The notes under the pieces: model-generated
Told to the model about the DNA's origin: nothing
Database searches by the model: none
Seen by the model: only the letters and a program-made list of their open reading frames with translations
Translations under genes and position numbers: made by a program
Shown here: positions 10,054 to 61,283 of the stretch, in pieces
Position numbering within the stretch: position 1 is the first letter of the stretch
How the letters are laid out: every line of letters starts with the position of its first letter
Origin: Lachnospiraceae bacterium
GTDB taxonomy: Bacteria > Bacillota > Clostridia > Lachnospirales > Lachnospiraceae
Direction of reading: 5' to 3'
Assembly: GCA_017936885.1 (NCBI GenBank)
Contig: JAGBEO010000011.1
Location: forward strand, 62,001-126,000
DNA length: 64,000 nucleotides

Positions 10054-10110
10054 GAATGCCGTGGGATCATGGCATAATAAAAACGGAATAACAGAAGTGA
10101 GGATGGAAAA

Positions 10111-11088
10111 ATGGGTTATCAGGATATTAAATTTGATGCTGACAGCGTGTTTCTGGTAGGCGGCGGCGCCGGATTTATCGGTTCCAATATTTGTGAGGCA
10201 CTGATCAACATGGGATACACCGTGCGTTGTCTGGATGATTTGTCCACCGGAAAATATGAGAATATTGAACCTTTGATCGAAAATGAGAGATTTACTTTTA
10301 TCAAGGGGGATATTCGTAATCTGGATACCTGCTTAGAGGCATCCAAAGGAGCAGACTATGTACTCAATCAGGCGGCTTGGGGAAGCGTGCCGAGAAGTAT
10401 TGAGATGCCGCTTTTGTATGAAGAGATCAATATCCGCGGTACATTAAATATGATGGAAGCGGCAAGAGTCAACGGCGTTAAGAAATTCGTCTATGCTTCC
10501 AGTTCTTCTGTGTACGGCAACACACCCACACTTCCCAAGAAAGAAGGGCAGGAAGGAAAAGTCATTTCTCCTTATGCGCTGACCAAGAAGGTAGATGAAG
10601 AGTACGGCCGTCTCTATAAAGAACTTTACGGACTGGATACTTATGGATTGCGTTATTTTAATGTATTTGGACGCAGGCAGGACCCGGACGGTATGTATGC
10701 GGCAGTCATTCCGAAGTTTATTAAACAGCTTCTGCACGGCGAGGTACCTACGATCAACGGTGACGGCAGACAGTCCAGAGACTTTACGTATATTGACAAT
10801 GTAATCGAAGCAAATCTGCGCGCCTGCCATGCTTCCAGTGAGGCAGCGGGACAGGCATTTAACATCGGTGCCGGAGGCAGACTGTATTTGATTGATATTT
10901 ATAACCATCTTTGCAAAGCATTGGGCAAAGAGGTGGAACCTAATTACGGACCAAACCGTAAGGGTGATGTAAGGGATTCCAATGCAGATATCAGTAAGGC
11001 AAGGGAACTTCTCGGGTATGATCCGGAATATGATTTCGAGAAAGGTATTGCGCTGGCGATTGACTGGTATAAGGAGTATTTGAAATAA
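10111..11088 (+). CDS. UDP-N-acetylhexosamine 4-epimerase (WbpP/TviC-like SDR)
   Basis: A 325-residue extended SDR. The NAD-binding motif GGGAGFIGSN is at about 17-26, SSSVYG near 131-136 and the catalytic Tyr155-x3-Lys159 in SPYALTKK. ADYVLNQAAWGSVPRS and YFNVFGRRQDP are typical of WbpP/TviC-type epimerases acting on GlcNAc/GalNAc or their uronic acids. With the 6-dehydrogenase at 7403 it makes the UDP-GalNAcA pathway known from Vi antigen and Pseudomonas O6. Exact substrate order is inferred. Confidence 0.9.
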   Translation: MGYQDIKFDADSVFLVGGGAGFIGSNICEALINMGYTVRCLDDLSTGKYENIEPLIENERFTFIKGDIRNLDTCLEASKGADYVLNQAAWGSVPRSIEMPLLYEEINIRGTLNMMEAARVNGVKKFVYASSSSVYGNTPTLPKKEGQEGKVISPYALTKKVDEEYGRLYKELYGLDTYGLRYFNVFGRRQDPDGMYAAVIPKFIKQLLHGEVPTINGDGRQSRDFTYIDNVIEANLRACHASSEAAGQAFNIGAGGRLYLIDIYNHLCKALGKEVEPNYGPNRKGDVRDSNADISKARELLGYDPEYDFEKGIALAIDWYKEYLK

Positions 11089-12091: not shown

Positions 12092-12245
12092 GTAACTGTG
12101 CATAAAATTTGTCTGCCGGGGTGTACTAAGGAACGTATATTGAATGTTTTTATAGCGGGAAAGGCTCGTGCGGGATAGATGGAACAATGCAGGTCAAGTT
12201 GCACAGGTTAGACAGACAGCAGAAAAGACAGAAGGAGAGAAAACC

Positions 12246-13166
12246 ATGAAATACAAAGTAGTCGTATTTGGTGTGAAAGACACCTCGGAGAATATTGTCA
12301 GTTTCATACAGGAGCAGATCTGCCCGGTGGATCTGGTCATTACCATCAGCCCGGAGGTGACGAAGAAAAATCAGGTTTCCGGCTACAAAGGGCTTTCTTT
12401 CCTGACGGAGAAATACGGGATTCCTGTACATGAGGCGGATAGTTATTTTCTGACAGACGAGAAGACGCAGAAGTTCATGCAGGAAAATGAGTTTGATATC
12501 GGTATTTCCATGGGTTGGCAGCGACTGATGCCGAAATCCGTGTTAGACTGTTTCAAGTACGGAGTGTTCGGATTCCATGGGAATTGCGGTTATCTGCCTT
12601 TTGGCAGAGGACGTTCTCCGCTTAACTGGTCGATTATCTTAGGGGACACCAGATTTAATCTGAACCTGTTCAAATATGACGAGAAGGCGGACAGCCCTAA
12701 TGTGTTTGCCACGGAGATGTTTTCCATTACGCCCCATGATGATATTCGTACGGCGCAGTATAAGAATATGATTTGTTCTAAGAACCTGATCCGTAAGCTG
12801 TTAAAGGCTTATGAAGAGGATCGCATTGAGATTCGTACGGATTCTAAGGATTTTGATTCCTGGTATAATAAGCGGACTGCGGTGGACGGAAAGATTGATT
12901 TTCATGCAAGAACCCGTGAGATCTACAATCTGATCCGCGGTGTGGCGGCGCCTTTTCCGGGAGCGTTTGCGATGCTTGGGGAAGAGAAGGTGACAGTATG
13001 GGAAGCCCATCCTTTTGATGAAATGATCGATTTCTCAGCCTATGCACCGGGAGAGGTTATTGATATCTTCGACGGAAAGCTTGTGGTACGTACCGTGGAC
13101 GGCTCACTGCTGATCGACAGATATGAGTGTCACGGACAGATCCGGGTGGGAGATGTATTAAACTGA
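12246..13166 (+). CDS. Formyltransferase-family protein (sugar N-formyltransferase candidate)
   Basis: About 306 residues. The N-terminal Fmt-like Rossmann domain contains GFHGNCGYLP and RGRSPLNW; a C-terminal OB-like part begins near residue 215. Such enzymes use N10-formyl-tetrahydrofolate to formylate an amino sugar. The canonical triad is Asn-x-His plus Asp. Here His111 and Asp149 are present, but the Asn position is Gly109, as in the GFH-type subgroup. ATG 12246 is fixed by AAGGAG at 12232-12237. A plausible substrate is the UDP-4-amino sugar from the 1333-4410 genes. The 154 bp before it hold no gene. Confidence 0.75.
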   Translation: MKYKVVVFGVKDTSENIVSFIQEQICPVDLVITISPEVTKKNQVSGYKGLSFLTEKYGIPVHEADSYFLTDEKTQKFMQENEFDIGISMGWQRLMPKSVLDCFKYGVFGFHGNCGYLPFGRGRSPLNWSIILGDTRFNLNLFKYDEKADSPNVFATEMFSITPHDDIRTAQYKNMICSKNLIRKLLKAYEEDRIEIRTDSKDFDSWYNKRTAVDGKIDFHARTREIYNLIRGVAAPFPGAFAMLGEEKVTVWEAHPFDEMIDFSAYAPGEVIDIFDGKLVVRTVDGSLLIDRYECHGQIRVGDVLN

Positions 13167-16415: not shown

Positions 16416-16493
16416 CGGGTGTTGTTCGCAAGTATTCGGCGGCTGTGATTGCAGATTGAAAGCAGAGCCGGAAGCGTTTGTGCGGATGGCGGC

Positions 16494-18395
16494 ATGAGGC
16501 AGAGTTTGAAAATGACGAAAGAAACAATGGGACAGACGAAAGGAAATGACAATCAATCAAAAGAAAATGTAGTCAGGGTTATGTTTAGAAAGCTCCTGGG
16601 TAGTGGAAGACAGATTGCGGTAAAGCTGGCATTTGCGCTTCTCTATGCCCTTTTCATTGTGTTGGGAGATTTCGATCAGGTGCTGGGGCAGACAGGCGGA
16701 GAGACTGCGGGAGAGATTATTGGCTGGTGGCTGCTTGTCTTTCTGATACTGACGATTGTTTTCGGAGCGCTGGATCATCGCAGAGCCGTACCGCGTCCGA
16801 TAGGCAGAATGGAGAAACGCTTTTACAGGGATTATATGTATCTTGTCTTTGCGGGTATTTGTTTCGTGTGCTGGCTGCCATATCTGCTTCTTTATTTTCC
16901 GGGCTGGATCAGCAATGATTCTGTCTGGCAGTTAGAGCAGGTATGCGGCTGGGTGGAGGCATCGAATCATCATCCCTATTTTCATACGATGATTATTAAA
17001 TGCTTTTTTATGTTGGGATTTCGGATATTCGGAACCTATACGGGAGCGGTGGCTGCTTTTGTGGTGGCACAGATGGTATTTATGGCGTGTGTCTATGCCC
17101 TTGTGATATATGATTTTTATAAAAAGGGTGTACATATCTTCTGGCTGGCGCTGGGATTGTTCTTCTATGCGGGGCTTCCCATGAACGGACTTTATGCTAC
17201 CTGTATGGGGAAGGATGTGATCTTTGCCGGGGTGCTGCTTCTGTATGTACGGGAGATTTATTTGTTTCTTGGTAAGGAAAAACAGGAGATTGCGCTGGAG
17301 GCATACGCTGAAAGAGCGCACGCAGGAAAAGGATACGCAAAAAAAGTCCGGGCAGAAAAGGCAAATACGGAAGAAAACCGGACAGGGAAATTGCTGACAG
17401 GGAAAACAGATACTAAGACGGCAGGCAGAAAGCGGAAACTTAGCATAGCTGAGGGAAAAGTATGGCGGTGGCTTGGAAATCATAAGTCATACCTTTGTTT
17501 AACGAGTTACGGTTTCCTTATTTGTGTGTTGCGAAGTAACGGTATTCTGGTCTTTGCAGGCACCGCAGCAGGTATGATACTCTCAAGGGCTTTGCGTAAG
17601 CAGGCACAGTTTCCACGCTTTAAAAAAATTCTCATAAGCAGTGTGATCGTGCTGGGCTGTTATCTGGTTTATCACGGTCCTGTGCTGGATGCCCTGCATG
17701 TGACACAGCCAGATACCATAGAAGGGCTTACCATGCCTACCCAGCATATTATCAGCGCTTATGTGAATAATGGGAAGATCACGGAAGAAGAACTGGCACT
17801 CTTAAATCAGGCGGTGCCCATGGAAAATATAGCAGCCTACTATAATCCGTATTATTTCGATATTGTGAAAGAATATATCCGCGCAGAGGGAAACCAGCAG
17901 GTTATTGCAGACAATAAGGGAGCCTTTTTCAAGGCATGGCTACAGATCGGACTGCGCAATCCGCTGCAGTATCTGGATGCGGAAGTGAGGCAGACTTGCG
18001 GGTATTGGATGTTTGATATCAATGAGCCGATTTATGAGCAGTACCGTATGGCGGAGAATCCGTTTGAGCTTACCGTACAGCGGAAGGTATTCAGCTATGA
18101 TTTCGGGCTGTGGATGGATGATTTTCTGATGAAATTCCAGGATTTCTATAACTGGGTATGGAGTCTGGGACTTACTACGTGGACGATGCTTGCCTGTATG
18201 GCATATGCCTTGTACCGCAGAAGAAGCTGTCTGCCCTATCTGCCTTATGTGATGCTGTTTGTGTCTTTGCTGCTTGCCACACCGGTACATGCGGAGTTTC
18301 GTTATACGTACGGCATGTTTGTGGCATTGCCGTTTGTGATTGGGATAACGTTGAAAAGGGAGGAGGGTTACGAGAGTGATGAAAAAATGGTTTAA
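16494..18395 (+). CDS. DUF6020-type polytopic membrane protein with hydrophilic insert
   Basis: About 633 residues. After a polar N-terminus come many membrane segments. YFPGWISNDS and HHPYFHT, placed around an outside loop, are features of the DUF6020 family, which looks like a GT-C glycosyltransferase; enzymatic activity is inferred. A Lys/Ala/Glu/Thr-rich stretch (about 17285-17445) interrupts two helices and looks like a late insertion. Start is uncertain (TTG 16449, ATG 16494, 16512, 16527 or 16581), because none has a convincing ribosome binding site. It overlaps the next gene by 20 nt. Confidence 0.65.
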   Translation: MRQSLKMTKETMGQTKGNDNQSKENVVRVMFRKLLGSGRQIAVKLAFALLYALFIVLGDFDQVLGQTGGETAGEIIGWWLLVFLILTIVFGALDHRRAVPRPIGRMEKRFYRDYMYLVFAGICFVCWLPYLLLYFPGWISNDSVWQLEQVCGWVEASNHHPYFHTMIIKCFFMLGFRIFGTYTGAVAAFVVAQMVFMACVYALVIYDFYKKGVHIFWLALGLFFYAGLPMNGLYATCMGKDVIFAGVLLLYVREIYLFLGKEKQEIALEAYAERAHAGKGYAKKVRAEKANTEENRTGKLLTGKTDTKTAGRKRKLSIAEGKVWRWLGNHKSYLCLTSYGFLICVLRSNGILVFAGTAAGMILSRALRKQAQFPRFKKILISSVIVLGCYLVYHGPVLDALHVTQPDTIEGLTMPTQHIISAYVNNGKITEEELALLNQAVPMENIAAYYNPYYFDIVKEYIRAEGNQQVIADNKGAFFKAWLQIGLRNPLQYLDAEVRQTCGYWMFDINEPIYEQYRMAENPFELTVQRKVFSYDFGLWMDDFLMKFQDFYNWVWSLGLTTWTMLACMAYALYRRRSCLPYLPYVMLFVSLLLATPVHAEFRYTYGMFVALPFVIGITLKREEGYESDEKMV

Positions 18396-19467
18396 GCCGG
18401 TTTGCTTCGTCCTTCCGCTTCTTTTGTTCGTGGCTGTTGTGAATTGGTATGTGGATTCCTATGCTTATCTGCGGGTGACCTATGAACAGATCGGTTCACA
18501 GATGATAGAGGGACAAAATAATGTAGTGGGTCTGGAGGAGTCTAATTTTAATGACAGAAATCTGCTTTTGGCGTGTTTGGAAGAGCAGGAAGCCAGAGAG
18601 GTTGTTGTGATAGGTTCCAGCAGAGTACTTTCTTTTGATCATGAAATGTTTGAAACGGATTCTTTTTACAATGCAGGTATGTCGGAGACGACGATTTATG
18701 ACTTGATGGCAGTAACGGGAATCCTGACAAAACAAAATACGCTGCCTCAAAAAATGGTGATTGGTGTAGATCCTTTTCTCTTTAATGTAAGTACTAACAA
18801 CGAAAAATGGAAAGAACTGGAATCATATGAACAATATATGGAAGCTGTTTTAGCCGGGGCAGAACCAACATCGTTTCAGGAGAAAAATATAGGAAGGAAT
18901 GATAATAAGTGGTTATCATTAGATTATTTCCGTTATAATGTGTCATTACTTCCGAACAGGGAACGCTTTCTGGTATCCTATACCAAGGATTGGGAAGCGG
19001 ATCAGTATATGAAACATTATGACGGCAGTATTGCCTATGAAAAGTCATTGCGTGAAATTGATGCGAACGATGTGATTACGCTGACAGAACAATCCATTGA
19101 AGAACATGTCGTGTACAGGTTAACCGATTACCGGGAAATTGATGCGGTGAGCATGGATTATTTTACAAAGCTTCTTACCTTTTTACAGGGGCAGGGGGTT
19201 GAGGTTATCTTATACTTGCCACCTTATTCCCAAATGATGTATGATTACATAGAATCCGATGAACAGTTTCATCTGGTGTTTCAGGTAGAGGATGAGATGC
19301 AGCGGCTTGCACAGAAGATGGGCATTGCTTTATATGGTTCTTACGATCCGGCAGGCAGCAATCTGGAGATGACAGATTTATATGATGTTTATCATGTAAA
19401 GGCAGAGAAAATGCCGGATACCTATTTCCCGGTTTATCTGCCACAGACAGGAATTCTAATGAGATAG
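18376..19467 (+). CDS. DltD-like membrane-anchored SGNH protein of a dlt-like cassette
   Basis: A 363-residue protein: one N-terminal membrane anchor (about 8-27), then an extracytoplasmic domain. GSSRVL near residue 76 gives the Gly-x-Ser-Arg block I of SGNH hydrolases, followed by FYNAGMSE and VIGVDPFLF. DltD proteins have this layout and assist transfer of D-alanine from the MBOAT partner to the acceptor. The C-terminal DVYHVKAE may supply the Asp-x-x-His pair. It begins the block that contains an adenylating enzyme, a carrier protein and an MBOAT. AGGAGGG lies 8 nt before GTG 18376; ATG 18379 is the alternative. The start lies within the end of the DUF6020 gene, implying translational coupling. 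Confidence 0.7.
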   Translation: MMKKWFKPVCFVLPLLLFVAVVNWYVDSYAYLRVTYEQIGSQMIEGQNNVVGLEESNFNDRNLLLACLEEQEAREVVVIGSSRVLSFDHEMFETDSFYNAGMSETTIYDLMAVTGILTKQNTLPQKMVIGVDPFLFNVSTNNEKWKELESYEQYMEAVLAGAEPTSFQEKNIGRNDNKWLSLDYFRYNVSLLPNRERFLVSYTKDWEADQYMKHYDGSIAYEKSLREIDANDVITLTEQSIEEHVVYRLTDYREIDAVSMDYFTKLLTFLQGQGVEVILYLPPYSQMMYDYIESDEQFHLVFQVEDEMQRLAQKMGIALYGSYDPAGSNLEMTDLYDVYHVKAEKMPDTYFPVYLPQTGILMR

Positions 19468-19531
19468 AAAATATATACAAAAAGAGCGGGTGTGAAAATA
19501 ATTTTTATGCTGCGCGGAAATGAGGAAGAAA

Positions 19532-21037
19532 ATGAAAGCGAATGTTACCTATTGGTTAGACGAGACAGCGGCTAAATTTCCATCAAAAACTGCTTTTGCT
19601 GATGAACAGAAAGAAATTACATTTGGGGATTTACAAAAACAGGCACAGGCGATTGGAACAAGGATCGCAGAGAAAGGACTGTTTAAAAAGCCGATTGTGG
19701 TTTTTTTGGAAAAAGGAGTTGATGTACTGACCTGTTTTATGGGAGTGGCATACAGTTGTAATTTCTATTCTCCGATCGATGTCGATATGCCGACGAGCAG
19801 AGTTAATAAAATATTAGAAGTGCTGCAGCCTGCACTGGTCATTACAAATGCCGGGTTGCAGTCAGTTTTCCGTGAATATGATTATAAGGGAGAATACCTC
19901 CTGTTTGAAGAAGCAAGTGTATCCGAAGGATCTATAGAGAAAATCAATGCCGCAAGAAACAAAGGGATTGATACGGATTTATTGTATGTGTTGTTTACAT
20001 CCGGTTCTACCGGTGTGCCAAAGGGTGTTACGATCACGCATCGTTCGGTGATTGATTATATTGACTGGGTGACGGAAACCTTTTCCATTACAGAAGAGGA
20101 CAGCTTCGGCAATCAGGCGCCTTTCTATTTTGATAACTCTATTCTGGATATTTACAGTACGGTTAAGAGCGGCGCTACCACTTATATTATTCCGAAGAAT
20201 CTTTTTGCGCAGCCTGTTTTATTGTTGGAGTATTTGAAGGAGAAGAAAATCAATACCATTTTCTGGGTGCCGTCAGCACTGATCGTTGTGGCAAAACTAA
20301 AAGCATTTCGCAATGTGGATCTGTCAGATACTTTGAAACGAGTACTTTTCTGCGGTGAGGTTATGCCCAATAAACAGTTGAATACATGGCGTAAATTCCT
20401 GCCGGATGTACTGTATGCAAATTTGTACGGACCGACAGAGATAACAGATGCCTGTACTTATTATATTGTTGACAGAGAGTTTGCAGATGATGAACCGCTG
20501 CCGATCGGTATTCCTATGGCAAACACGGATATTCTGGTGTTGAATGACAGAAATGAGCTTGTGACAGGGGATGAAATCGGAGAGTTATGTGTCCGGGGAA
20601 CTTCCCTTTCCATGGGGTATTATAATAATCCGGAGAAGACGAAGGAAGCTTTTGTGCAGAATCCGTTGAATCCTTTCGTACCCGAGATTATTTACCGTAC
20701 GGGAGATCTGGTAAAATACAATGAGTTTGGAGAGATTATCTATCTGTCCAGAAAAGATTTCCAGATCAAGCATATGGGACACAGGATTGAACTGGGTGAA
20801 ATTGAGACAGCAGTGTCTTCCTTAGAAGAAATTTCGCTTTGTTGTTGTTTGTATGATGAAAAACATCAGAAGATTGTTCTTTTTATAGAAGAAGAGTTGG
20901 ACAAGGCATATATTATTGAGAAGATTTCCGAATTAGTGCCGGAATATATGTTCCCGAACAAAGTTATTTCCCTGGAAAAAATGCCGATCAACGCCAATGG
21001 TAAGATCGATAGAGTGAAATTAAAAGAGCTGTTATAA
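19532..21037 (+). CDS. Amino-acid adenylating enzyme (DltA-like, carrier-protein ligase)
   Basis: About 501 residues, a stand-alone adenylation enzyme of the ANL superfamily. Seen in order: P-loop FTSGSTGVPKG (about 155-165), YFDNSILDIY with Asp201, NLYGPTE, YRTGDLVKY, RKDFQIKHMGHRIEL and the C-terminal NGKIDR lysine. Asp201 occupies the A4 position that binds the alpha-amino group in DltA and NRPS A domains, so an amino-acid substrate is likely. It should activate the acid with ATP and load it on the carrier protein at 21963. ATG 19532 has GAGG 6 nt upstream; an in-frame ATG at 19520 lacks spacing. Closest characterised logic is DltA, D-alanine:carrier ligase; identity of the amino acid is unknown. 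Confidence 0.85.
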   Translation: MKANVTYWLDETAAKFPSKTAFADEQKEITFGDLQKQAQAIGTRIAEKGLFKKPIVVFLEKGVDVLTCFMGVAYSCNFYSPIDVDMPTSRVNKILEVLQPALVITNAGLQSVFREYDYKGEYLLFEEASVSEGSIEKINAARNKGIDTDLLYVLFTSGSTGVPKGVTITHRSVIDYIDWVTETFSITEEDSFGNQAPFYFDNSILDIYSTVKSGATTYIIPKNLFAQPVLLLEYLKEKKINTIFWVPSALIVVAKLKAFRNVDLSDTLKRVLFCGEVMPNKQLNTWRKFLPDVLYANLYGPTEITDACTYYIVDREFADDEPLPIGIPMANTDILVLNDRNELVTGDEIGELCVRGTSLSMGYYNNPEKTKEAFVQNPLNPFVPEIIYRTGDLVKYNEFGEIIYLSRKDFQIKHMGHRIELGEIETAVSSLEEISLCCCLYDEKHQKIVLFIEEELDKAYIIEKISELVPEYMFPNKVISLEKMPINANGKIDRVKLKELL

Positions 21038-21075
21038 TAATTGTAACGTTGAAAACGTATCGGAATGGAGAAAGC

Positions 21076-21951
21076 ATGAAGAGTACGGCATTTAAGCGTA
21101 TCGTTATTCTTGGCTATGGCAAGGTGACGGGCGAAGTATTAACATATGTGCAGGAGCAGAAAGCGGATTACGGATATTATCTGGAATTTATTGAGCATGA
21201 AATTCATCCTTTTAGTATTACAGAGAAAATCTGCCGGGAACATGAAATTTCTTTTGCGCAGATCGCAGATAAAAAGGAGCTTGCAGACTATTTAGATACG
21301 TTGCACGAGAAAACTCTGATTATCAGCGCCAGCAACAATTTTCTGTTTCCGAAGACACTGGTAGAGAAGGAAAATATTACGATCATCAACTTTCATAATG
21401 CATTGCTGCCGGATTATCCGGGCAGAAATGCCCCAAGCTGGGTTATTTATATGGGAGAGAAGGAGACAGGGATCACCTGGCATTATGTGACAGCGGGGGT
21501 AGATGAGGGCAATATCATTATACAGAAGCATTGTCCGATCGGGGAAGATACGAAAGCCTATGAATTGACGGAAACTTTAATGAATCTTGCTTATGAAGGC
21601 TTCAGGGAGCTGTTTGCGGACGTACTTGCCGAGTCTGTAATAGGGAAGCCGCAGCAGTTTTTGGCAGACAGGCGTATGTATCGTTCTAAGGAAGTGCCCG
21701 GCGGCGGCAGATTTTTGATGACGGATGATCCTTATGATATTTACCGCCTGCTGCGCAGCGTAGATTATGGTAAAAATGATATTTTCCCGCGTGTGCATGC
21801 CGTGTATCAGGGAGAGGAGATTGAAATCCTCAGATACCGTAAAGTTGATAAAAGTAAAATTTCCGAAGGGGATGCCTTTTTGTATCTGCCTTTGGATGAA
21901 AGCAATGTGCTTAAAATAAAGTATCAAAAATACATTCCGCAGGAAGGATAA
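21076..21951 (+). CDS. Formyltransferase embedded in the dlt-like cassette
   Basis: About 291 residues, Fmt-type. The triad is intact: Asn105 and His107 in INFHNALLP and Asp143 in GVDEGNI, with the YPGRNAP loop between. It should therefore transfer formyl from N10-formyl-tetrahydrofolate to an amine. It lies between the adenylating enzyme and the carrier-protein gene (11 bp gap), so its substrate could be the aminoacyl-carrier protein, as in the formylation domain of linear gramicidin synthetase LgrA. An amino sugar is the alternative. ATG 21076 has GGAG 5 nt upstream; the ATG at 21049 has none. Confidence 0.8.
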   Translation: MKSTAFKRIVILGYGKVTGEVLTYVQEQKADYGYYLEFIEHEIHPFSITEKICREHEISFAQIADKKELADYLDTLHEKTLIISASNNFLFPKTLVEKENITIINFHNALLPDYPGRNAPSWVIYMGEKETGITWHYVTAGVDEGNIIIQKHCPIGEDTKAYELTETLMNLAYEGFRELFADVLAESVIGKPQQFLADRRMYRSKEVPGGGRFLMTDDPYDIYRLLRSVDYGKNDIFPRVHAVYQGEEIEILRYRKVDKSKISEGDAFLYLPLDESNVLKIKYQKYIPQEG

Positions 21952-21962
21952 GGGAGAGAAAA

Positions 21963-22193
21963 ATGGAAGAAAAAATTTTAGCAATTCTGGAAGAACACTG
22001 TGAGGAAGCATTGACTTATGAAGGAAATTCCATGATGGAAGACGGGATTATTGATTCCTTTACGGTTATCAATGTGGTAGGTGATTTAGAGGATGAATTT
22101 GATATTGAAATTGATGCCAAATATGTAGTGGCAGAGAATTTCCGTAACAAAGAAGCAATCATAGCACTGGTTCAGAAGTTATTGGAGGAGTAA
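21963..22193 (+). CDS. Acyl/aminoacyl carrier protein (DltC-like)
   Basis: A 76-residue acidic helical protein. Ser32 in DGIIDSFTV is the predicted phosphopantetheine attachment site; the GIIDS context and length match DltC better than fatty-acid ACP, whose site is usually DSL. It should receive the activated acid from the adenylating enzyme and present it to the MBOAT encoded immediately downstream. Its last codons contain the ribosome binding site of that MBOAT gene, so the two are translationally coupled. Confidence 0.9.
   Translation: MEEKILAILEEHCEEALTYEGNSMMEDGIIDSFTVINVVGDLEDEFDIEIDAKYVVAENFRNKEAIIALVQKLLEE
22184..22190 (+). promoter_or_regulatory. Ribosome binding site inside the carrier-protein gene
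   Basis: GGAGGAG lies within the last codons of the carrier-protein gene; after the TAA stop the MBOAT ATG begins at once. This is a strong coupling signal between carrier and acyltransferase. Confidence 0.6.
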
Positions 22194-23768
22194 ATGCAGC
22201 TTTTATCGTATTCCTTTATTTTGCTGTGGGTACTTTCGTTTGCACTTTTTTATCTGGTTCCGGCAAAGAAGCAGTGGTATGTGCTGTTAGTATCCAGCAT
22301 TCTTTTTTATCTGATTACGCTGCGGGGATTCCCGCTTAATCTGTTATTGACCGGGCTGACAACCTATTATTGCGGGATTTATCTGAAGAACAGTCTGGAG
22401 AAACAGAAAGAAGAGTCGGCTGCATGTCAGAATAAAGAAGAGAAAAAAGCACTGAAGGAACAATTTGAAAAGAAGAGAAAAAGAATACAGTTGCTTTATT
22501 TTATTTTTAATCTGGGGCTGCTTGTATTCTATAAGTATGCTACGCTTGTTATTCCGGTATGGGAAACATTTGCGGGGAAGTCCGCCGGTTTTCTGGCAAA
22601 AATCGTTATGCCGCTGGGCATTTCTTTCTATACACTGGTGGCAATGGGTTATATCATTGATGCCGGACGGGAAAACTGTGAGGTAGAGACAAACTTTTTT
22701 AAGTTGTTATTGTTCTTGTTTTATTTTCCCGCCATTACGCAGGGACCGTTTAACCGCTTTGCCAATATGAAGGAGCAATTTGCAAAAGAACACCGGATGG
22801 ATTATGGGCAGACAGTGCGGGGAGTCCAGCGATTTGTCTGGGGTGCTTTTAAGAAGCTTGTCATTGCAGACCGGATCGGTATTTTTGTAGATAATGTTTA
22901 CGGCGGAGATATCACACAGACAGCGGGCAGTATCCTTGCCTGTGCAACGGCGCTTTATATGCTGCAGTTATATGCGGATTTCTCAGGATATATTGACATG
23001 GCAATGGGGGTCAGTGAAACATTTGATATTACTTTGCCTGAGAATTTTAAGCGTCCCTTTTTTTCCAGGTCAGTTGCGGAATTTTGGCGTAGATGGCATA
23101 TTACATTGGGAACATGGTTTAAAGATTATGTGATGTTTTCCTTTGTTATGTCTAAGGCGGGAAGGAAGCTTGGCAAGACCTGTAAGAAGAAATGGACAAA
23201 TTACGGGAAGCATGTAGTGCCGATTATTGGTACGATGTTCGTATGGTTCCTGACAGGTGCATGGCATGGAAGAACAATAACCTATCTGCTGTGGGGAGTT
23301 TATTATGGTATTATCATGAGTATTTCTCTTATATTAGAGCCGCAGTATGAGAAATGGAAGACCAGGCTGCATATCGGAACCGGAAAAGGATATGCTTTTT
23401 TCTGTATGGTCAGAACGTGGCTGATCGTATTTGTGGCAGATATGATAATCAGGAGCAATAGCGTGGCACAGGCATGGGAAGTGTTCACATCTTTCTTTAC
23501 GAGACTGCATCTTGATCTTCTGCTCAGCAAAACAGTCACATCTTACGGTTTGAATAAATATGAGTTTCTGATTCTGGCAGCAGCATTGTTTATCTGGCTG
23601 GCAGTTTCCGTCGGAGAAGAAAAAGGACAGGATATCCGTGCATTCCTGGCATCAAAGCCGTTAGTTGTACGTCTGCTTTGTTATTATGGAATTGTTGTTC
23701 TGCTTCTGGTAACAGGAATTTATGGTGGTAATTATGACACAGCGGTGTTTATGTATCAGAGTTTCTGA
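22194..23768 (+). CDS. MBOAT O-acyltransferase (DltB/AlgI-like)
   Basis: A 524-residue polytopic protein of the MBOAT family. The conserved FWRRWHITLGTWFKDYV block (His301 region) and the catalytic-type His358 in TGAWHG are present, with MPLGISFYT and FFPAITQGPF-like segments upstream. DltB takes an aminoacyl group from DltC at the membrane and passes it across to an outside acceptor with the help of DltD. The same gene set is contiguous here, so an aminoacyl or modified aminoacyl decoration of the glycan is predicted. AlgI/PatA-type sugar O-acetylation is the alternative, but the dedicated carrier protein argues for the Dlt mode. Confidence 0.9.
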   Translation: MQLLSYSFILLWVLSFALFYLVPAKKQWYVLLVSSILFYLITLRGFPLNLLLTGLTTYYCGIYLKNSLEKQKEESAACQNKEEKKALKEQFEKKRKRIQLLYFIFNLGLLVFYKYATLVIPVWETFAGKSAGFLAKIVMPLGISFYTLVAMGYIIDAGRENCEVETNFFKLLLFLFYFPAITQGPFNRFANMKEQFAKEHRMDYGQTVRGVQRFVWGAFKKLVIADRIGIFVDNVYGGDITQTAGSILACATALYMLQLYADFSGYIDMAMGVSETFDITLPENFKRPFFSRSVAEFWRRWHITLGTWFKDYVMFSFVMSKAGRKLGKTCKKKWTNYGKHVVPIIGTMFVWFLTGAWHGRTITYLLWGVYYGIIMSISLILEPQYEKWKTRLHIGTGKGYAFFCMVRTWLIVFVADMIIRSNSVAQAWEVFTSFFTRLHLDLLLSKTVTSYGLNKYEFLILAAALFIWLAVSVGEEKGQDIRAFLASKPLVVRLLCYYGIVVLLLVTGIYGGNYDTAVFMYQSF

Positions 23769-23823
23769 GACTACGGTTATGAATGGGATGCCTATATGGG
23801 AATAGAGGAGAGATGTTAAGGTT

Positions 23824-24924
23824 ATGCGCAAAATTGCATTTCATTTAAATTGTTTGGAACAAGGCGGCGCGGAGCGTGTCGTAACGAACCTGGCGAACCA
23901 GTTTGCGGCTAACGGCTATGAGGTGCTGATTGCCACAGAGTGGTATGGTGAGAATGAATTTCAGATTGATGAGAGAGTACGGCGTGTGCACGTAGGACTT
24001 AGAGAGGGCGATGATAAGAAACATCGCCTTGTTCAATTTTATCTGCGGGTGAAATATCTGAGGGATTTTCTGAAAAAAGAGAAGCCGGATATTTTGATTC
24101 CCTTTGCCAGAAGGGCGCTTTACCGCGGACTGATGGCGGCTTATTTTATGAAGGTTCCGGTATTGATTTCCATTCGTACCGATCCGGTGGGGCATTACGA
24201 AGAACTTTCGGACAAGCTGCAGATTCCCATTCTCTTCCCAAGAGCAGACGGATGTGTGTTTCAGACAGAGGGTGCGAAGGAGTTCTTTGCGCCCAGACTG
24301 CAGAACAATTCCCGCATTATTTTAAATCCGATCAATCCGAAGTATATCGGTGTGCCGGAACCGGAGCACCGGAATAAGACGGTGGTACAGTCGGGACGGC
24401 TGGTAGATTTTAAGAATCAGCCGATGTTAATCCGTGCTTTTGTGGAAGTGCATAAGAAGCACCCGGATTATGATTTGAAAATTTATGGCGGAGATTCCTT
24501 TGATGGTACGAAGGAGATTCTGGAGCAGATTATAGAAGAAAATCAGGCACAGGATTATGTGCATCTGATGGGAGCCAGTGACAGTCTTGAAAAAGAAATG
24601 GCGGATGCTGCACTGTTTGCATTTTCATCCGATTGGGAAGGGCTTCCCAATGCACTGATGGAGGCGATGGCGCTGGGGCTTCCGATCGTGGCAACGGACT
24701 GTCCCTGCGGAGGTCCGCGCACGATTATGACTCATGAAGTGGATGGGCTGCTGATTCCGATCAAGGACCAGAAAGCGCTGGAAGACGGTATGAACCGTTT
24801 GATTGAAGACAGACCGCTGGCGGAAAGACTTGGCAGGGAAGCGCGGAAGATTGCGGAGAAAGCGAATGGAGAGGCTGTTTATGAGAGGTGGCGGGACTAT
24901 ATTGAAGAATTGTGCTCAAAATAA
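23824..24924 (+). CDS. GT4 glycosyltransferase
   Basis: A 366-residue GT-B enzyme. CLEQGGAERVV (acceptor loop), VQSGRLVDFKNQ and EGLPNALMEAMALGLPIVATDC with CGGPRTI are clear GT4 marks, close to capsular GalNAc/hexose transferases of the Cps14/PglH type in general form. The MBOAT gene ends 55 bp upstream and YfhO starts 4 bp downstream. Confidence 0.88.
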   Translation: MRKIAFHLNCLEQGGAERVVTNLANQFAANGYEVLIATEWYGENEFQIDERVRRVHVGLREGDDKKHRLVQFYLRVKYLRDFLKKEKPDILIPFARRALYRGLMAAYFMKVPVLISIRTDPVGHYEELSDKLQIPILFPRADGCVFQTEGAKEFFAPRLQNNSRIILNPINPKYIGVPEPEHRNKTVVQSGRLVDFKNQPMLIRAFVEVHKKHPDYDLKIYGGDSFDGTKEILEQIIEENQAQDYVHLMGASDSLEKEMADAALFAFSSDWEGLPNALMEAMALGLPIVATDCPCGGPRTIMTHEVDGLLIPIKDQKALEDGMNRLIEDRPLAERLGREARKIAEKANGEAVYERWRDYIEELCSK

Positions 24925-24928
24925 GATA

Positions 24929-27466
24929 ATGGAAAAGAGACAATCTATTATTGAAAATTTTGTGATTATTTTATGCGTTACCCTGATCTGGAGTCTGGGC
25001 TGTGCATATAAATCTATTTATCCGTTCGGCAATAATCTGATGGATGTGGGAGATATGCAGGGGCAGATCGTTCCGATCTATACCTTTTTATGGGATGTTC
25101 TGCATGGAAATAAGGCATTTTTCTTCGATTGGAGTATCGGGCTTGGCAACAATATGGCGGGGGCGGCGTGGCATTTCACCTTAATTAGTCCGTTTAATCT
25201 CTTTTTCTTATTCATTGAGCGTTCACAGATAGAGGAACAATTATTTTTGTTCCTTCTGATCAAGCTGATTGCCATCGGGATGAGTTTTCGTTTTGTCATA
25301 CGGAAATGGTTCTCTGATTTGAAGCCGATTATTGTACTTGCATTCACGCTTCTTTATGTATTCTGTCCGTTTTCGATAGAATATTATAGGTTTCCGGCGT
25401 GGCTGGACGTAGTATTTATGTTCCCTCTTGTGATGTATTTCTATTTTGAATTAATGAATCACAGAAGGATAAAGGGTTTTACGATATGTCTGACAATGGT
25501 AGCCGTGATGAATTTCCAACATACCTTCTTGCTTGTGGTCTTTCTGGTTTTTACCACGGGAGGTCTGCTTTTGCTTGACAGGGAAAAGTATCGGGATGCG
25601 TTGTTTGCACTGGTAAGAGCAGCGGCTGTGGCTGCAGGCATATCTGCTTTTGTATGGGTTCCGGGTATTTTGCAGATTATGACAGGTGCACGTTTTAGTG
25701 ACGGTACCGATATTATTGATATATGGAATTCTATTTGGTTTTTACATCCTTCAAAATGGCTGAAATGCTTCAACGTGGGTATCCCGCTTGGAATGTTTCT
25801 CTTTGCGGTTTTCAGACACAAACAAGATAAAAAGATAAAGATTTGGTATTGCTATGTGCTGGCATTACTGGGGTTTCCTATTTTTCTGGAGAGCAGCAAC
25901 ATTCTGTGGCATGGCGGATTTTATCAGGGATATACGATGCGTTTTTCTTACATGCTTACTTTCTGGTGCGTTATGGCGGGAATTTGGGGATATTCCGCGC
26001 TGAGAAACGATGGAAAAGAGCCTGTTTCAAGGAAAACATTGCTTTATGTTATAGTTTCCGTTGTTTTGTTGGCAGGATTAATAGTTTTATCAATAAATAT
26101 TATACAGAGTGAAAACAACATCATTAAGACAGGAATTACGATTGCCGTATCGATTGTGCTGGGGATGCTGCTGTTATTATGGAAAAAATATGAAGAGACC
26201 GTGATGTTATTGGTGTCTGTCTTGCTTTCCTTTCTGCTTGTAGGCTCCAATATACTGGTATCTTATTCCGTTGACAACAGTGACATAGGAATATTTAACA
26301 GGATATGGGAATCCGGCTATCGGGTGGATGTTCTGTCGAGAGTAAAAGCGGAATCGGGTGCATGGCTTTCTAACTATACAATGAATATGGGTGGAAATTC
26401 CATCAGTAATTATATGGCGGCGGAAGGTGCTGATCAGATAAATTCGTATCTGCGTTTAGGATATGCTAAGATAGGGATTCGAATGAGTGATTACGGCGGC
26501 ACTTTGTTTTCCGATGCCTTATTGGGTGTTAAGGAACTGGTATGTAATGATGACAGCTTCTGTTCTGCGGATTTGTATCAGCCTGCCCGTATTCGGGAGA
26601 AGCATTACAGCATTCATGATTGCAAGTATACATATCCCATAGGGATATTGACAGATTCTCAGACAGATATTACCTATGGAGAGGATGTTTTTGCCAATCA
26701 GAATGCAATTTCAAATGCTGTTTGCGGTGTGGAATTTCTGAAATGCTATGAAACGAACACAGAAGAGATCATTCTTGATGTTGCTTCTGAAAGTATTCTG
26801 TATGCCTATGTGCCCGCCGGAAGCGGAATAGAAGGTTTTACTGTTACGGATATGGTTATCGGGACAGAGAAAGAACAGAATTTGTATGATTCCAAATGGG
26901 AAAACGGTATCATTAATCTGGGAACATGGGGGGCAGGAACATTTAAAGTGACAATTCATGGAACGTGGGATGAAACAAACGTACAGTTTGCACTGCTGTC
27001 TATGGATGCGTTTAAAAATAATCAACCTTTGTATGCTCAAAATGTTACTTATGAGGCAGATCAAAATTCAATCAGCCTGCATGCAGAGTGTGAAGATATA
27101 AATAAAAGTCTGTTTTTACCCATTTACGCTGATCAGGGTTGGAAATGCCGCGTTAATGGGAAAAAAGTTGCGATTGACAACATTATATCCGGTGGAATGC
27201 TGATTCCGATGGAGCAGGGGGATAATGAGATTGAGCTTGTGTATTATTCACCGGGATTGTATGCGGGTTTGCTTTGTAGTCTTGTCACGATACTGATGGT
27301 AATTTTATGTTTTGCAGGCAAGAGATCTTATAAGGTGTTGGAGGGAAAAGCAAATTGTGCATTGCAATATGTGGTTTATGTAGTTTATGGAGGCATGATT
27401 CTTGTATTTTATTTCGTTCCCATAATATTTTTACTTAAATATTTGTTAATATCATGTATAATATAA
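24929..27466 (+). CDS. YfhO-family polytopic membrane protein
   Basis: About 845 residues. An N-terminal helix is followed by DVGDMQGQ and IGLGNNMAG/LISPFNLF, the YfhO family's outside-loop marks; about a dozen more helices and a large outside C-terminal domain follow, the domain ending in VYYSPGLYAG before the last helices. YfhO proteins of Bacillus, Listeria and related Firmicutes are implicated in glycosylating lipoteichoic acid outside the cell using undecaprenyl-phosphate sugars. Here it probably attaches side sugars to the glycan (inference). An apparent longer reading from 24803 is rejected, because it would overlap the preceding GT4 by 122 nt in another frame. Confidence 0.8.
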   Translation: MEKRQSIIENFVIILCVTLIWSLGCAYKSIYPFGNNLMDVGDMQGQIVPIYTFLWDVLHGNKAFFFDWSIGLGNNMAGAAWHFTLISPFNLFFLFIERSQIEEQLFLFLLIKLIAIGMSFRFVIRKWFSDLKPIIVLAFTLLYVFCPFSIEYYRFPAWLDVVFMFPLVMYFYFELMNHRRIKGFTICLTMVAVMNFQHTFLLVVFLVFTTGGLLLLDREKYRDALFALVRAAAVAAGISAFVWVPGILQIMTGARFSDGTDIIDIWNSIWFLHPSKWLKCFNVGIPLGMFLFAVFRHKQDKKIKIWYCYVLALLGFPIFLESSNILWHGGFYQGYTMRFSYMLTFWCVMAGIWGYSALRNDGKEPVSRKTLLYVIVSVVLLAGLIVLSINIIQSENNIIKTGITIAVSIVLGMLLLLWKKYEETVMLLVSVLLSFLLVGSNILVSYSVDNSDIGIFNRIWESGYRVDVLSRVKAESGAWLSNYTMNMGGNSISNYMAAEGADQINSYLRLGYAKIGIRMSDYGGTLFSDALLGVKELVCNDDSFCSADLYQPARIREKHYSIHDCKYTYPIGILTDSQTDITYGEDVFANQNAISNAVCGVEFLKCYETNTEEIILDVASESILYAYVPAGSGIEGFTVTDMVIGTEKEQNLYDSKWENGIINLGTWGAGTFKVTIHGTWDETNVQFALLSMDAFKNNQPLYAQNVTYEADQNSISLHAECEDINKSLFLPIYADQGWKCRVNGKKVAIDNIISGGMLIPMEQGDNEIELVYYSPGLYAGLLCSLVTILMVILCFAGKRSYKVLEGKANCALQYVVYVVYGGMILVFYFVPIIFLLKYLLISCII
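27457..27462 (+). promoter_or_regulatory. Possible -10 element before the second deacetylase-like gene
   Basis: A perfect TATAAT sits at the end of the YfhO gene, but no good -35 lies at the right distance. An imperfect hairpin (GATGCACT/AGTGTATC, about 27494-27513) follows. Weak support only. Confidence 0.2.
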
Positions 27467-27546
27467 ATATTGGTACAAGATCAGTAGGAAACGGATGCAC
27501 TATAAAGTGTATCGTAGCGTACCCGAAGAGGAAGAGAGGATAAAAG

Positions 27547-28305
27547 ATGTTTTCATTTGACGATTATAGAGAGATCATAAGAATTATACAGTCTACAGGC
27601 AGACAGTGCGGTTATGCGGATGCCTTACACAAGGACAAATTTATCATCATGCGTCACGATGTGGAATACAGTGTGGACAGAGCCTATCAGCTTGCGAGGG
27701 TGGAACAGAGCATGGACTTTATCTCCACCTATTTCTTCCAGTGGACGAACAATTCCTATAATATTTTATCCAGAAGAAATATGGATATGATTAAGGATAT
27801 GCACGAGAGGGGACAGCATATTGGTCTTCATTTTGCATTAAACGGCATGACGGATATGCAGCAGATCCGTAAGCGCATTAAGATGGAAATGGAAATTTTA
27901 AGTGAGATGTTCGGTTTTGAAATTACGGAATTTTCCGTACACAGGCCATCTAAGGATGTGCTGAGAGAGAATATCAAGCTGGATGGCATCTTAAATGCTT
28001 ATCAGGATGATTTCTTTACGTTTGCAGACACAATAACCGGAGATACCCAACTGAAAGTGAAATATATGTCTGATGCCAACCATATCTGGCGGTACGGATA
28101 TCCGAATGAAGCTAATATCACAGGATATGATAAGGTGCAGATCCTGACACATCCTTTTGCATGGTGTAAGAAAGGTTATGATAATTTCGATAACTATAAG
28201 GCTTTATTGCAGGAAAAATATATAGAATTAGTGGAATCCGTGGACAATGAGTGTAAGGATTTCGGAGAGTATAAAGATTACTTTATGGCAAAGGATGTGC
28301 GTTAA
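27547..28305 (+). CDS. Polysaccharide deacetylase-fold protein
   Basis: A 252-residue protein with no signal peptide. The metal-site motifs are RHDVE (about 36-40), GLHF (about 97) and VHRPS; DANHIWRYG is conserved towards the C-terminus. This pattern is found in NodB-like proteins of glycan clusters whose substrates are unknown. A cytoplasmic deacetylation of a nucleotide- or lipid-linked N-acetyl sugar is possible. It is a different subfamily from the DUF2334-like protein at 13210. Confidence 0.7.
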   Translation: MFSFDDYREIIRIIQSTGRQCGYADALHKDKFIIMRHDVEYSVDRAYQLARVEQSMDFISTYFFQWTNNSYNILSRRNMDMIKDMHERGQHIGLHFALNGMTDMQQIRKRIKMEMEILSEMFGFEITEFSVHRPSKDVLRENIKLDGILNAYQDDFFTFADTITGDTQLKVKYMSDANHIWRYGYPNEANITGYDKVQILTHPFAWCKKGYDNFDNYKALLQEKYIELVESVDNECKDFGEYKDYFMAKDVR

Positions 28306-28394: not shown

Positions 28395-30293
28395 ATGTGC
28401 GGAATATGTGGATACATCAGTAAAAAGAATATTACAGAGGAACAACTGAGAGAAATGAATGATACGATGTATCACAGGGGACCGGATGACAGCGGTGCTG
28501 AGATTTATCCTGCATCTGACGGGTATCAGGTTGGATTTGCACAGAGGCGGTTGTCGATTTTGGATCTTTCCATGTTGGGACATCAGCCGATGCATTCCGG
28601 GAATAAGCGTATTTCGGTGGTATATAATGGAGAAATTTACAATTTTCAGGAATTGAAAAAGGAACTGGCGGACTATCCTTTCCGGTCTAATTGTGATACG
28701 GAGGTTATTATTGCCGCTTATTTAAAATGGGGAATTTCCTGTATTGAGCGGTTCAACGGTATGTTTGCCATTGCTTTGTATGACAGGGAGACAGAGGATA
28801 TTTATCTGGTCAGGGATCGTATCGGGAAGAAACCCTTATACTATTGGTATGAAGACTGTAATCTGGTATTCGCGTCAGAATTAAAGCCGATTATGAAATG
28901 TCCGGGTTTTCACGGACAAATCGCTCAGGGTGTGTTGTCCCGCTATCTGTTTCAGCAGTATATCAATGCGCCGGAAAGTATTTATAAGAATGTGTACAAG
29001 CTGGAACCGGGGGCAGTGCTGCAGTTTCGAAAGGGACAGATTAAGACATGGAAATACTGGGATGTCAGGGAAGTCTATGCAAAAGCGCAGGCGAATCCGG
29101 TAGGCAGCTATGAGGAAGCCAAGGGGCAGCTAAAGGAACTGCTTAAGAAAGCGGTTGCCTGCAGAATGATTGCAGACGTACCCTTAGGATCATTTCTAAG
29201 CGGCGGATACGATTCTTCTTTGGTGACAGCTATTGCACAGGAGCATTCTGCGGAGCCGGTTAAAACCTTTTCCATCGGTTTTCATGAGGAAAAATATAAT
29301 GAGGCGAAGTATGCTAAGGCGGTGGCAGAGTACCTTGGAACGAACCATACCGAGTTGTACATTGATGAACAGGATATGTTTGATCTGGTGGAGAGCATCC
29401 CGGCATATTATGACGAGCCGTTTGCGGACAGCTCCCAGATCGCTACGATGATGGTATCGAAGCTTGCCAGGGAGCATGTGACGGTAGCCTTGTCGGGGGA
29501 CGGCGGCGACGAATTTTTCTGCGGCTATAATATTTACGAAAACGTGGCTCAGGCACAGAAACTGGATGTGCTGGGAGGGCTGGTGCACGGTGTCTGCAGT
29601 CTGCCGGGCTTCAAGCAGGCACATATGGAGGACAGACTGCCCTTTAAGGTACGTGTGATTGCAGGGAACAGAGAGAAGGAAAGTAAAACGCAGTTCGGAG
29701 CCGGTAACTATATTGTGAAAGCGAAGGCAATGGTCGGAGCGCTTCCGGCGGGTGAGACAGCTCTGCCGATTCATTATCTGATAGAGAGTCAGTATGGCGT
29801 GAAAAAATGGCAGGTGCGCAGAATGCTGTTAGATATGGACACTTATCTGCCTGGGGATATCTTGTGTAAAGTAGATCGGGCTTCCATGAAATATTCATTG
29901 GAATCCAGATGCCCGATTTTGGATACGGATGTTATGGAATTCTCTTACCGGATTCTGCATCAGTATAAGTTTGCAGGAGGAGATAAGAAACATATACTGA
30001 AGGATATCGCCTATGATTATATTCCCAGGGAATTATTGGACCGCCCTAAGGTTGGATTTGGGGTGCCGCTTGATAAATGGCTTCGCGGTCCGCTTCGGGA
30101 TCGACTATTAGATTACAGTAGTTATGATTACTTGAAAAATCAGAATATTTTTGATGCGGGATATGTATCTGACATGATTCAAACTTATGTTGCAACAGGA
30201 GATGCGGGCCCGGCAACGGGTGCAAATTACTCCAAGCTGTCCTGGTCATTCTTTGTATTTCAGCAATGGTATGAAAAATATAACAGGAATTAA
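28395..30293 (+). CDS. Asparagine synthase-like glutamine amidotransferase (AsnB/WbpS-like)
   Basis: A 632-residue two-domain enzyme. Cys2 (MCGICGY) is the glutaminase nucleophile of the N-terminal class II GATase domain; YHRGPDDSG, YNGEIYN and the PP-loop SGGYDSS of the synthetase domain are all present. In glycan loci such proteins amidate uronic acids (for example WbpS in Pseudomonas O-antigen), and a UDP-N-acetylhexosaminuronate pathway is in the same window. Amidation of the uronate is therefore likelier than free asparagine synthesis (inference). GGGAG precedes the ATG. Confidence 0.85.
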   Translation: MCGICGYISKKNITEEQLREMNDTMYHRGPDDSGAEIYPASDGYQVGFAQRRLSILDLSMLGHQPMHSGNKRISVVYNGEIYNFQELKKELADYPFRSNCDTEVIIAAYLKWGISCIERFNGMFAIALYDRETEDIYLVRDRIGKKPLYYWYEDCNLVFASELKPIMKCPGFHGQIAQGVLSRYLFQQYINAPESIYKNVYKLEPGAVLQFRKGQIKTWKYWDVREVYAKAQANPVGSYEEAKGQLKELLKKAVACRMIADVPLGSFLSGGYDSSLVTAIAQEHSAEPVKTFSIGFHEEKYNEAKYAKAVAEYLGTNHTELYIDEQDMFDLVESIPAYYDEPFADSSQIATMMVSKLAREHVTVALSGDGGDEFFCGYNIYENVAQAQKLDVLGGLVHGVCSLPGFKQAHMEDRLPFKVRVIAGNREKESKTQFGAGNYIVKAKAMVGALPAGETALPIHYLIESQYGVKKWQVRRMLLDMDTYLPGDILCKVDRASMKYSLESRCPILDTDVMEFSYRILHQYKFAGGDKKHILKDIAYDYIPRELLDRPKVGFGVPLDKWLRGPLRDRLLDYSSYDYLKNQNIFDAGYVSDMIQTYVATGDAGPATGANYSKLSWSFFVFQQWYEKYNRN

Positions 30294-60138: not shown

Positions 60139-60264
60139 TATAAGGCGTTAGAGGCTGGAGGAAATATTTATTTAATATACCGTTGTATGTTTGAAAGAGT
60201 GACAATAATGGGAAGAGGAACAATATTATAAATATCAATAATATCAATTTATGGAGGACACAAT

Positions 60265-61269: not shown

Positions 61270-61283
61270 GTTGGGAGACCTAT

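Follow-up and report, generated by a model that had tools for sequence, protein, structure and literature searches.

What would a formyltransferase be doing in a cassette of Dlt-type genes, the D-alanylation carried out by Dlt systems being the textbook amino acid decoration of bacterial envelopes and one that adds positive charge? The question is raised by 64,000 nucleotides of a Lachnospiraceae bacterium (NCBI GenBank assembly GCA_017936885.1, contig JAGBEO010000011.1, positions 62,001 to 126,000), here called the window. An earlier note, made from the sequence alone, proposed that five genes in it load an amino acid on a carrier protein, formylate it there and transfer it to an extracellular glycan. 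The parts, their linkage and their phylogenetic trees support that proposal, and we suggest, with a probability of roughly two in three, that the cassette makes N-formyl-aminoacyl groups and exports them in a Dlt-like manner, by way of an acyl-tyrosine, to a surface polysaccharide.

The cassette and its proposed mechanism

The five contiguous open reading frames, on the + strand at 18376-23768, lie where the earlier note had placed them, and with the starts that orthologues support the gaps between them are 64, 38, 11 and 0 bp:

18376..19467, + strand: SGNH acyltransferase (DUF1574); GTG start, with an ATG at 18379
19520..21037, + strand: stand-alone amino-acid adenylating enzyme (A); orthologues fit ATG 19532 as the likely start
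21049..21951, + strand: formyltransferase (FT); TTG start, the ATG at 21076 being likelier and fitting the orthologues
21963..22193, + strand: acyl or aminoacyl carrier protein (ACP) of 76 residues, with Ser32; 33 bits against the DltC model NF003464
22194..23768, + strand: MBOAT acyltransferase (PF03062), with His302, His358 and a C-terminal FMYQSF that contains Tyr521

Each chemical step, the amino acid, the amine that is formylated and the acceptor are inferred from the parts and their residues, from their relationships and from the linkage that is conserved between them. A would adenylate a small amino acid and load it on the phosphopantetheine arm of ACP at Ser32, and FT would formylate the alpha-amine of that amino acid on its carrier, with 10-formyltetrahydrofolate as the donor, in the way of the formylation domains of nonribosomal peptide synthetases (NRPSs). 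MBOAT would take the N-formyl-aminoacyl group from ACP onto its own Tyr521 and bring it to the outer face of the membrane, where the SGNH serine would accept it and form an ester on a hydroxyl of the polysaccharide made by the surrounding cluster. Such a decoration would be neutral: the formylated amine lacks the positive charge that D-alanylation brings.

Conservation and distant relatives

A gene order kept by no relative, which the earlier note had named as a refutation of its reading, is excluded: A-FT-ACP-MBOAT is found in 34 of 34 orthologous loci of the genus, each contig being counted once, and we consider the order to be beyond chance because all of them keep it. Because their contigs are equally long, loci L072-L077, L107 and L113 were treated as duplicates of L011, L014, L012, L015, L018, L016, L019 and L017; L013, truncated before its A gene, is among the 46 FT rows used below and outside the 34; and a second FT match in G618 (contig C34) is outside the counts. 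The SGNH gene lies upstream, uninterrupted, in 32 of the 34, being in two frames in L097 and cut by the contig end in L098. An extra membrane-protein gene stands between FT and ACP in two of them, L016 and L079, and the two inserts differ (8920-10191 in L016, the same as in L077; 3964-5484, GtrII-like, in L079). The named records of orthologous loci are Lachnospiraceae or Clostridia metagenome-assembled genomes and the strain Bacterium 0.1xD8-71 (L018). With the window's own genome included in every count, the FT profile matches 35 of the 60 genus genomes (20 of the 28 of good quality), 6 of the 392 genomes searched in the order at 1e-30, where two of the matches are NRPS domains, and 2 of the 398 searched in the phylum; the single FT protein as query matches 8 of the 250 family genomes at E 1e-20, and the A profile finds 43 of the 60 genus genomes at 1e-100.

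The strongest argument about the substrate comes from 11 FTs that fall outside the window's clade and score above 200 bits. Nine of them have both A and ACP genes within 8 kb, in several gene orders, and eight have an MBOAT gene within about 3 kb. (FTs below 200 bits, in L029-L032, L059, L086, L091, L092, L095 and L096, lie outside the counts of 46 and 11 and were used in the trees and the motif list only.) The order is A-FT-ACP-MBOAT in L020, L022, L023 and L069 and SGNH-MBOAT-A-ACP-FT in L025, FT follows A in L070 and L071, and L021 has FT with A-ACP some 7 kb away; in L119, from a genome outside the class, A-FT-ACP occurs without MBOAT; L024 has MBOAT and SGNH genes and neither A nor ACP within 20 kb. 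In L095, from another family of the order, an A whose pocket code, DNLWLCLDVK, is nearly that of the window stands together with an ACP and with an FT that scores 118 bits and is extended at its C-terminus.

The loading enzyme itself may be replaced. Amino acid--[acyl-carrier-protein] ligases, which resemble class II aminoacyl-tRNA synthetases, load amino acids on carrier proteins, and in L026, the last of the 11, from another genus of the family, an ACP gene (8255-8500) and a homologue of these ligases (match to PDB 4h2w, E 2e-21) lie directly upstream of FT. The window has no such ligase and uses an NRPS-type A. By its sequence the homologue appears to be a different enzyme for the same carrier-loading step; the only A match in this locus is weak (96 bits) and 7 kb off, and another AMP-binding gene precedes ACP. 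Because so many arrangements keep a carrier-loading enzyme beside FT, we suggest that its substrate is a carrier-bound amino acid.

Some of these loci hold further genes. In L026 the FT, ACP and ligase-homologue genes (8255-10547) have AMP-binding genes nearby and no MBOAT match, and formyl-aminoacyl-ACP is perhaps turned into another product there. L022 (5837-6850), L023 (11823-12860) and L024 (13507-14520) share a PP-loop ATPase-type gene at 53-61% identity, which is found directly upstream of A in the first two and near MBOAT in the third; it has a 27-31% relative in the NRPS locus L120, and its product might act on the formamide or the glycan.

What the formyltransferase acts on

FT matches Formyl_trans_N (PF00551) at 75.8 bits (cut-off 26.1), and its model, with a predicted local distance difference test score (pLDDT) of 89.6, has the formyltransferase fold including the C-terminal domain. 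The catalytic residues listed by the earlier note are in place throughout the cassette: Asp201 in A, Asn105, His107 and Asp143 in FT (114, 116 and 152 counted from the TTG), Ser32 in ACP and two histidines in MBOAT. The Asn-x-His and the Asp of FT are present in 46 of 46 cassette-type rows.

It could be argued that FT instead formylates an amino sugar nucleotide of the cluster, that A and ACP adjoin it by chance or co-regulation, and that a plain aminoacyl group is transferred. The nearest solved relative of FT by sequence is a GDP-perosamine formyltransferase, sugar formyltransferases lead when the fold of its model is compared, and the window encodes a UDP-sugar dehydratase (at 1294) and a DegT aminotransferase (at 3274). 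These resemblances to sugar enzymes are a reservation about the earlier note's reading, as is the finding that genes which by their sequences seem to work like Dlt parts are, by curated models, not members of the Dlt families. The perosamine match says little, however, because that structure is also the nearest solved one to an NRPS FT domain. In a tree without LgrA or GDP-perosamine formyltransferase, and without the PurN and L059 rows of an earlier tree, the cassette FTs and NRPS-type FTs share a branch (support 96/96) that leaves out Fmt, ArnA, the VioF-type FTs and the DegT-linked FT, and the earlier tree, which has the PurN and L059 rows, no VioF-type rows and likewise neither LgrA nor GDP-perosamine formyltransferase, gives the same grouping of cassette and NRPS-type FTs (89/94). 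The motif [TS]WH, which is TWH in the window, is shared by 46 of 46 cassette-type FTs and by the NRPS-type FTs, and by none of the sugar or tRNA formyltransferases read; LgrA, at 62 bits, is outside both comparisons.

No relative of the window's DegT or dehydratase protein came up by BLASTP in the FT-bearing loci L011-L026 and L069-L085, each of which was covered for some 3-10 kb on either side, in most cases less than the 14-17 kb by which these genes lie upstream of the cassette in the window. A DegT gene was found beside an FT in L086 only, and that FT is of another kind and scores lower; the cluster has another formyltransferase-like gene of its own (12168-13166). An FT that acts on a nucleotide sugar only, another of the refutations foreseen by the earlier note, is unlikely on the strength of the trees, the A and ACP partners that distant FTs retain, the ligase homologue of L026 and an acetyltransferase gene that occupies the FT slot elsewhere (see below).

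The protein encoded at 12168-13166 has 62 bits against Formyl_trans_C and 26-27.5 against Formyl_trans_N (cut-off 26.1), carries Gly instead of Asn in its Asn-x-His motif (FGFHGN), and is 86-91% conserved in L014, L016, L017 and L019.

The adenylating enzyme and its amino acid

A scores 217 bits against Pfam AMP-binding, above the cut-off, and 333 bits against TIGR01733, the model for general amino-acid adenylation (cut-off 317). Its A4 Asp, Asp201 (Asp205 if counted from ATG 19520), is the equivalent of the amine-binding Asp235, and the equivalent of Lys517 is also present, positions being named and codes read by the GrsA scheme. The pocket code, DNLWLCLDAK, is identical in 22 of the 23 rows of its clade, the exception (L080) having Met for one Leu. 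These readings come from 53 A rows, 6 of them duplicates, to which the codes of L095 and L119 were added separately; other loci fetched late are outside the set. The DltA of a named plasmid has the code DLMSLCTVAK and agrees with the window's A at 5 of 10 positions, including the Cys, and from the sequence a small amino acid is to be expected as the substrate.

Where the locus has an FT above 200 bits, all 31 A rows keep the amine-binding Asp; where it has none, 19 of 22 do. In the remaining three, L057, L059 and L061, Ser replaces it, and these paralogues probably do not activate an alpha-amino acid because the residue is lost; in L059 a gene of the FT family, scoring 86 bits, lies at a distance of 1.8 kb. 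The earlier note had allowed that A might use something other than an amino acid, which is unlikely in view of the TIGR01733 match and the Asp found in every row linked to an FT above 200 bits.

A diamino acid could also be the substrate, with FT formylating its side-chain amine before or after loading, so that the exported group keeps a free alpha-amine. Some siderophore formyltransferases act on such side chains, and the pocket of the window's A has a second acidic residue, Asp310 at position 330, where the diaminobutyrate code also has Asp, a likeness that we count for this alternative. Trans-acting FTs of NRPS clusters, moreover, modify a monomer inside the peptide (excerpts of PMC8949500). 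Yet Asp at 330 is retained in the paralogues of L057, L059 and L061, which lack the amine-binding Asp, and the FT-linked A proteins of the DVK class, of L070 and of L071 have Lys or Arg at 239. The glutamate code has Lys there, and an acidic side chain is therefore suggested; since acidic amino acids have one amine only, these codes speak against a diamino acid, as does the Asp/Glu racemase-family gene found between A and FT in L071. Formylation of a side chain is, all told, an improbable account of the cassette.

Carrier, export and acceptor

ACP is a weak match to PP-binding (15.7 bits, cut-off 20.8), and its Ser32 column is retained in at least 93% of 50 ACP rows; the host genome encodes a phosphopantetheinyl transferase. 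MBOAT scores 51 bits against Pfam MBOAT (PF03062), above the cut-off, has the invariant residues His302 and His358 when aligned with DltB, and is 28% identical to a DltB over 247 columns. Its C-terminus, FMYQSF, is an FxYxxF acyl-shuttle motif, a feature absent from the earlier note, and FxYxxF is the C-terminal end of 51 of the 53 MBOATs above 400 bits, both misses being truncated at contig ends. The marks of an acyl-shuttle pair, a C-terminal FxYxxF, conserved histidines and an SGNH partner gene, are thus all present. In the excerpted text of PMC12148441, the Tyr of this motif carries the acyl group, and the motif resides on DltX in Dlt systems and is fused to MBOAT in acetyl-CoA-dependent systems such as PatA, which are without a carrier protein. 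In the window cassette the carrier protein and the MBOAT-fused motif occur together, and there is no separate DltX, the five genes leaving no space for a sixth between them; a genuine DltX, in L123, ends in FIYNEF, and its DltB is without the motif.

The SGNH protein, hydrophobic at its N-terminus as read from the sequence, retains its GSS motif at 80-82 and its DxxH at Asp337 and His340 (GTG numbering), and DUF1574 (31.5 bits) is the only Pfam or curated model that it matches above cut-off. The earlier note's "DltD-like SGNH" is right as to SGNH; the likeness to DltD is one of fold only, in a low-confidence model (pLDDT 53) whose matches are SGNH folds, where DltD shares the top place and gives the longest alignments.

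A second SGNH-like protein, without a Pfam match, is encoded in the window at 31656-32756; it is 19-29% identical to SGNH partners from MBOAT cassettes and has no MBOAT gene adjoining, and in L108 a similar SGNH gene lies 2.9 kb downstream of MBOAT.

The cassette is not a Dlt operon, because the DltA, DltB and DltC cut-offs are all missed: A has 324 bits against TIGR01734 (cut-off 560), MBOAT 148.5 against TIGR04091 (375), and ACP 21 against TIGR01688 (52) and 33 against NF003464 (68). What the earlier note called a complete dlt-like cassette therefore has Dlt-type parts and falls short of the curated families; a profile search of the host genome found no DltA above cut-off. As in Dlt, an adenylating enzyme, a carrier, an MBOAT and an SGNH protein are joined in one operon, the MBOAT core is DltB-like and the pocket Cys is common to both; unlike Dlt, the window has an embedded FT, its FxYxxF is fused to MBOAT, and its SGNH protein is DUF1574 and not DltD by sequence. 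With the PatA/PatB-type pairs that O-acetylate peptidoglycan, alginate and cellulose it shares the C-terminal FxYxxF and the SGNH partner, but those pairs use acetyl-CoA and no carrier (excerpts of PMC12148441), whereas here ACP and A would feed MBOAT.

That formyl-aminoacyl-ACP is made and passed to some acceptor other than a polysaccharide, such as a lipid, a peptidoglycan stem or a secreted small molecule, is very improbable: L021, with A, ACP and FT in its cluster, no MBOAT and a KASIII-type gene beside them, and L119, with A-FT-ACP, show by their want of an MBOAT that an A-ACP-FT module can feed other outputs, but the window has an MBOAT-SGNH pair, of a kind that in the excerpts of PMC12148441 acylates envelope polymers, together with glycosyltransferase, Wzy-like, TagA-type and pyruvyl transferase genes that point to a wall or surface polysaccharide.

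In L021, L119 and L122 the A-ACP module comes with FT or GNAT genes, is preceded by an AAC(3)-type gene and lacks an MBOAT. A KASIII-type gene follows ACP in L021; L122 has a look-alike by eye and L119 a gene of comparable length, which together look like a second use of the A-ACP module.

Possible exchange of tailoring genes

Twenty-two loci of the genus with A paralogues and no FT above 200 bits served as controls, and L050, L055, L058, L060, L062 and L063 are A-ACP-MBOAT-SGNH cassettes. In L051 a GNAT acetyltransferase gene stands between A and ACP, in the place where L069 has FT; the two A proteins, both with the code DVKWMSLCNK, are sisters (100/95), and a frame break splits the gene of L069. 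Mapped on the A tree, the presence of FT must change state at least 6 times, and well supported branches compel 3 of these changes. A GNAT gene is next to ACP in L065 and, as a weak match of 23 bits (cut-off 20.7), in L064; L070 has one between A and FT, and a GNAT-like gene 25% identical to that of L070 (E 1.5e-10) lies between A and ACP in L122, a named Paenibacillus locus. In L047, L056 and L021, A or ACP has an AAC(3)-type N-acetyltransferase gene as its neighbour. Besides L071, an Asp/Glu racemase-family gene is found near five cassettes that lack FT and have Lys or Arg at 239 in the code of A; the other rows with Lys at 239 have none nearby.

A strict rule by which DVK-class cassettes carry an N-acyltransferase is weakened, because L048, L050, L066, L067 and L068 showed no relative of one in BLASTP with GNAT and AAC(3) queries, a few of their neighbours having been scanned with Pfam; L049, of the same class, has a 24% GNAT-like match without a Pfam match. 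A broader proposal, to which we give even odds, is that a stand-alone A and a carrier form a platform with an exchangeable tailoring gene between or next to them (FT, GNAT, AAC(3)-type or Asp/Glu racemase) and an MBOAT-SGNH exporter, by which gut Lachnospiraceae, through changes of the A code and of the enzyme that caps the amine, would diversify their surface polysaccharides, and that elsewhere A-FT-ACP feeds a different output enzyme.

Genomic context

The whole window is one long surface-polysaccharide cluster. Besides numerous glycosyltransferases and the initiating sugar transferases it encodes Wzy-like proteins, whose Pfam matches are weak, a TagA/WecG-type fusion and a pyruvyl transferase. 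The genes that flank the cassette, both assigned by Pfam, are:

16449..18395, + strand: DUF6020 membrane protein, the upstream neighbour
23824..24924, + strand: GT4 glycosyltransferase, the next gene after the cassette

The GT4 gene is downstream in 9 of 9 loci compared, 82-88% identical, and in L018 follows after a 1.3 kb gap; the DUF6020 gene is upstream in all 8 loci long enough to show it, 37-53% identical, and is 1.9 kb away in L011, L012 and L015. GC content is 0.41-0.42 in 18001-24000 and 0.43-0.49 in most 2-kb blocks of the window, blocks of equally low GC being 26001-28000 and 60001-62000. Two asparagine-synthase-type amidotransferases are also encoded in the cluster, at 28395-30293 and 32857-34803.

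Precedents and meaning

NRPS formylation domains act on the amino acid after it has been loaded (excerpts of PMC8949500). The window's FT resembles them, LgrA of linear gramicidin synthesis being an example of the type, in its tree grouping and, among those read, in [TS]WH; unlike them, FT, A and ACP are stand-alone proteins, and the product would be expected on an envelope polymer and not in a peptide. A formyl-aminoacyl decoration has chemical precedent, since the O-antigen of Vibrio anguillarum serotype O2 carries an N-formyl-L-alanyl group (excerpts of PMC10059132). The earlier note knew of no described system of this composition, and likewise our searches of the open-licence PubMed Central literature yielded no description of a gene set of FT, adenylating enzyme, carrier and MBOAT, and, among the matches listed, no title on such a system beside papers that contain formyltransferase, DltB and DltA, nor one on an N-formyl-alanyl group of a teichoic acid or glycan. 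The V. anguillarum group is amide-linked, whereas an ester would be expected from the window cassette.

The cassette joins a carrier-protein donor, as in Dlt, to a fused shuttle motif, as in PatA, which are separate in the excerpted text of PMC12148441. If our proposal is right, the amine is capped before export and a neutral decoration is made by the logic of Dlt, and the cargo of MBOAT-SGNH pairs widens from acetyl and D-alanyl to N-acyl-aminoacyl groups. Should the platform hold as well, polysaccharides would bear esters of N-acylated neutral or acidic amino acids, the electrostatic opposite of D-alanylation. Formyl-amino acids would then be predicted on the glycans of commensal gut bacteria, where they may be relevant to host recognition and to the enzymes that remove them.

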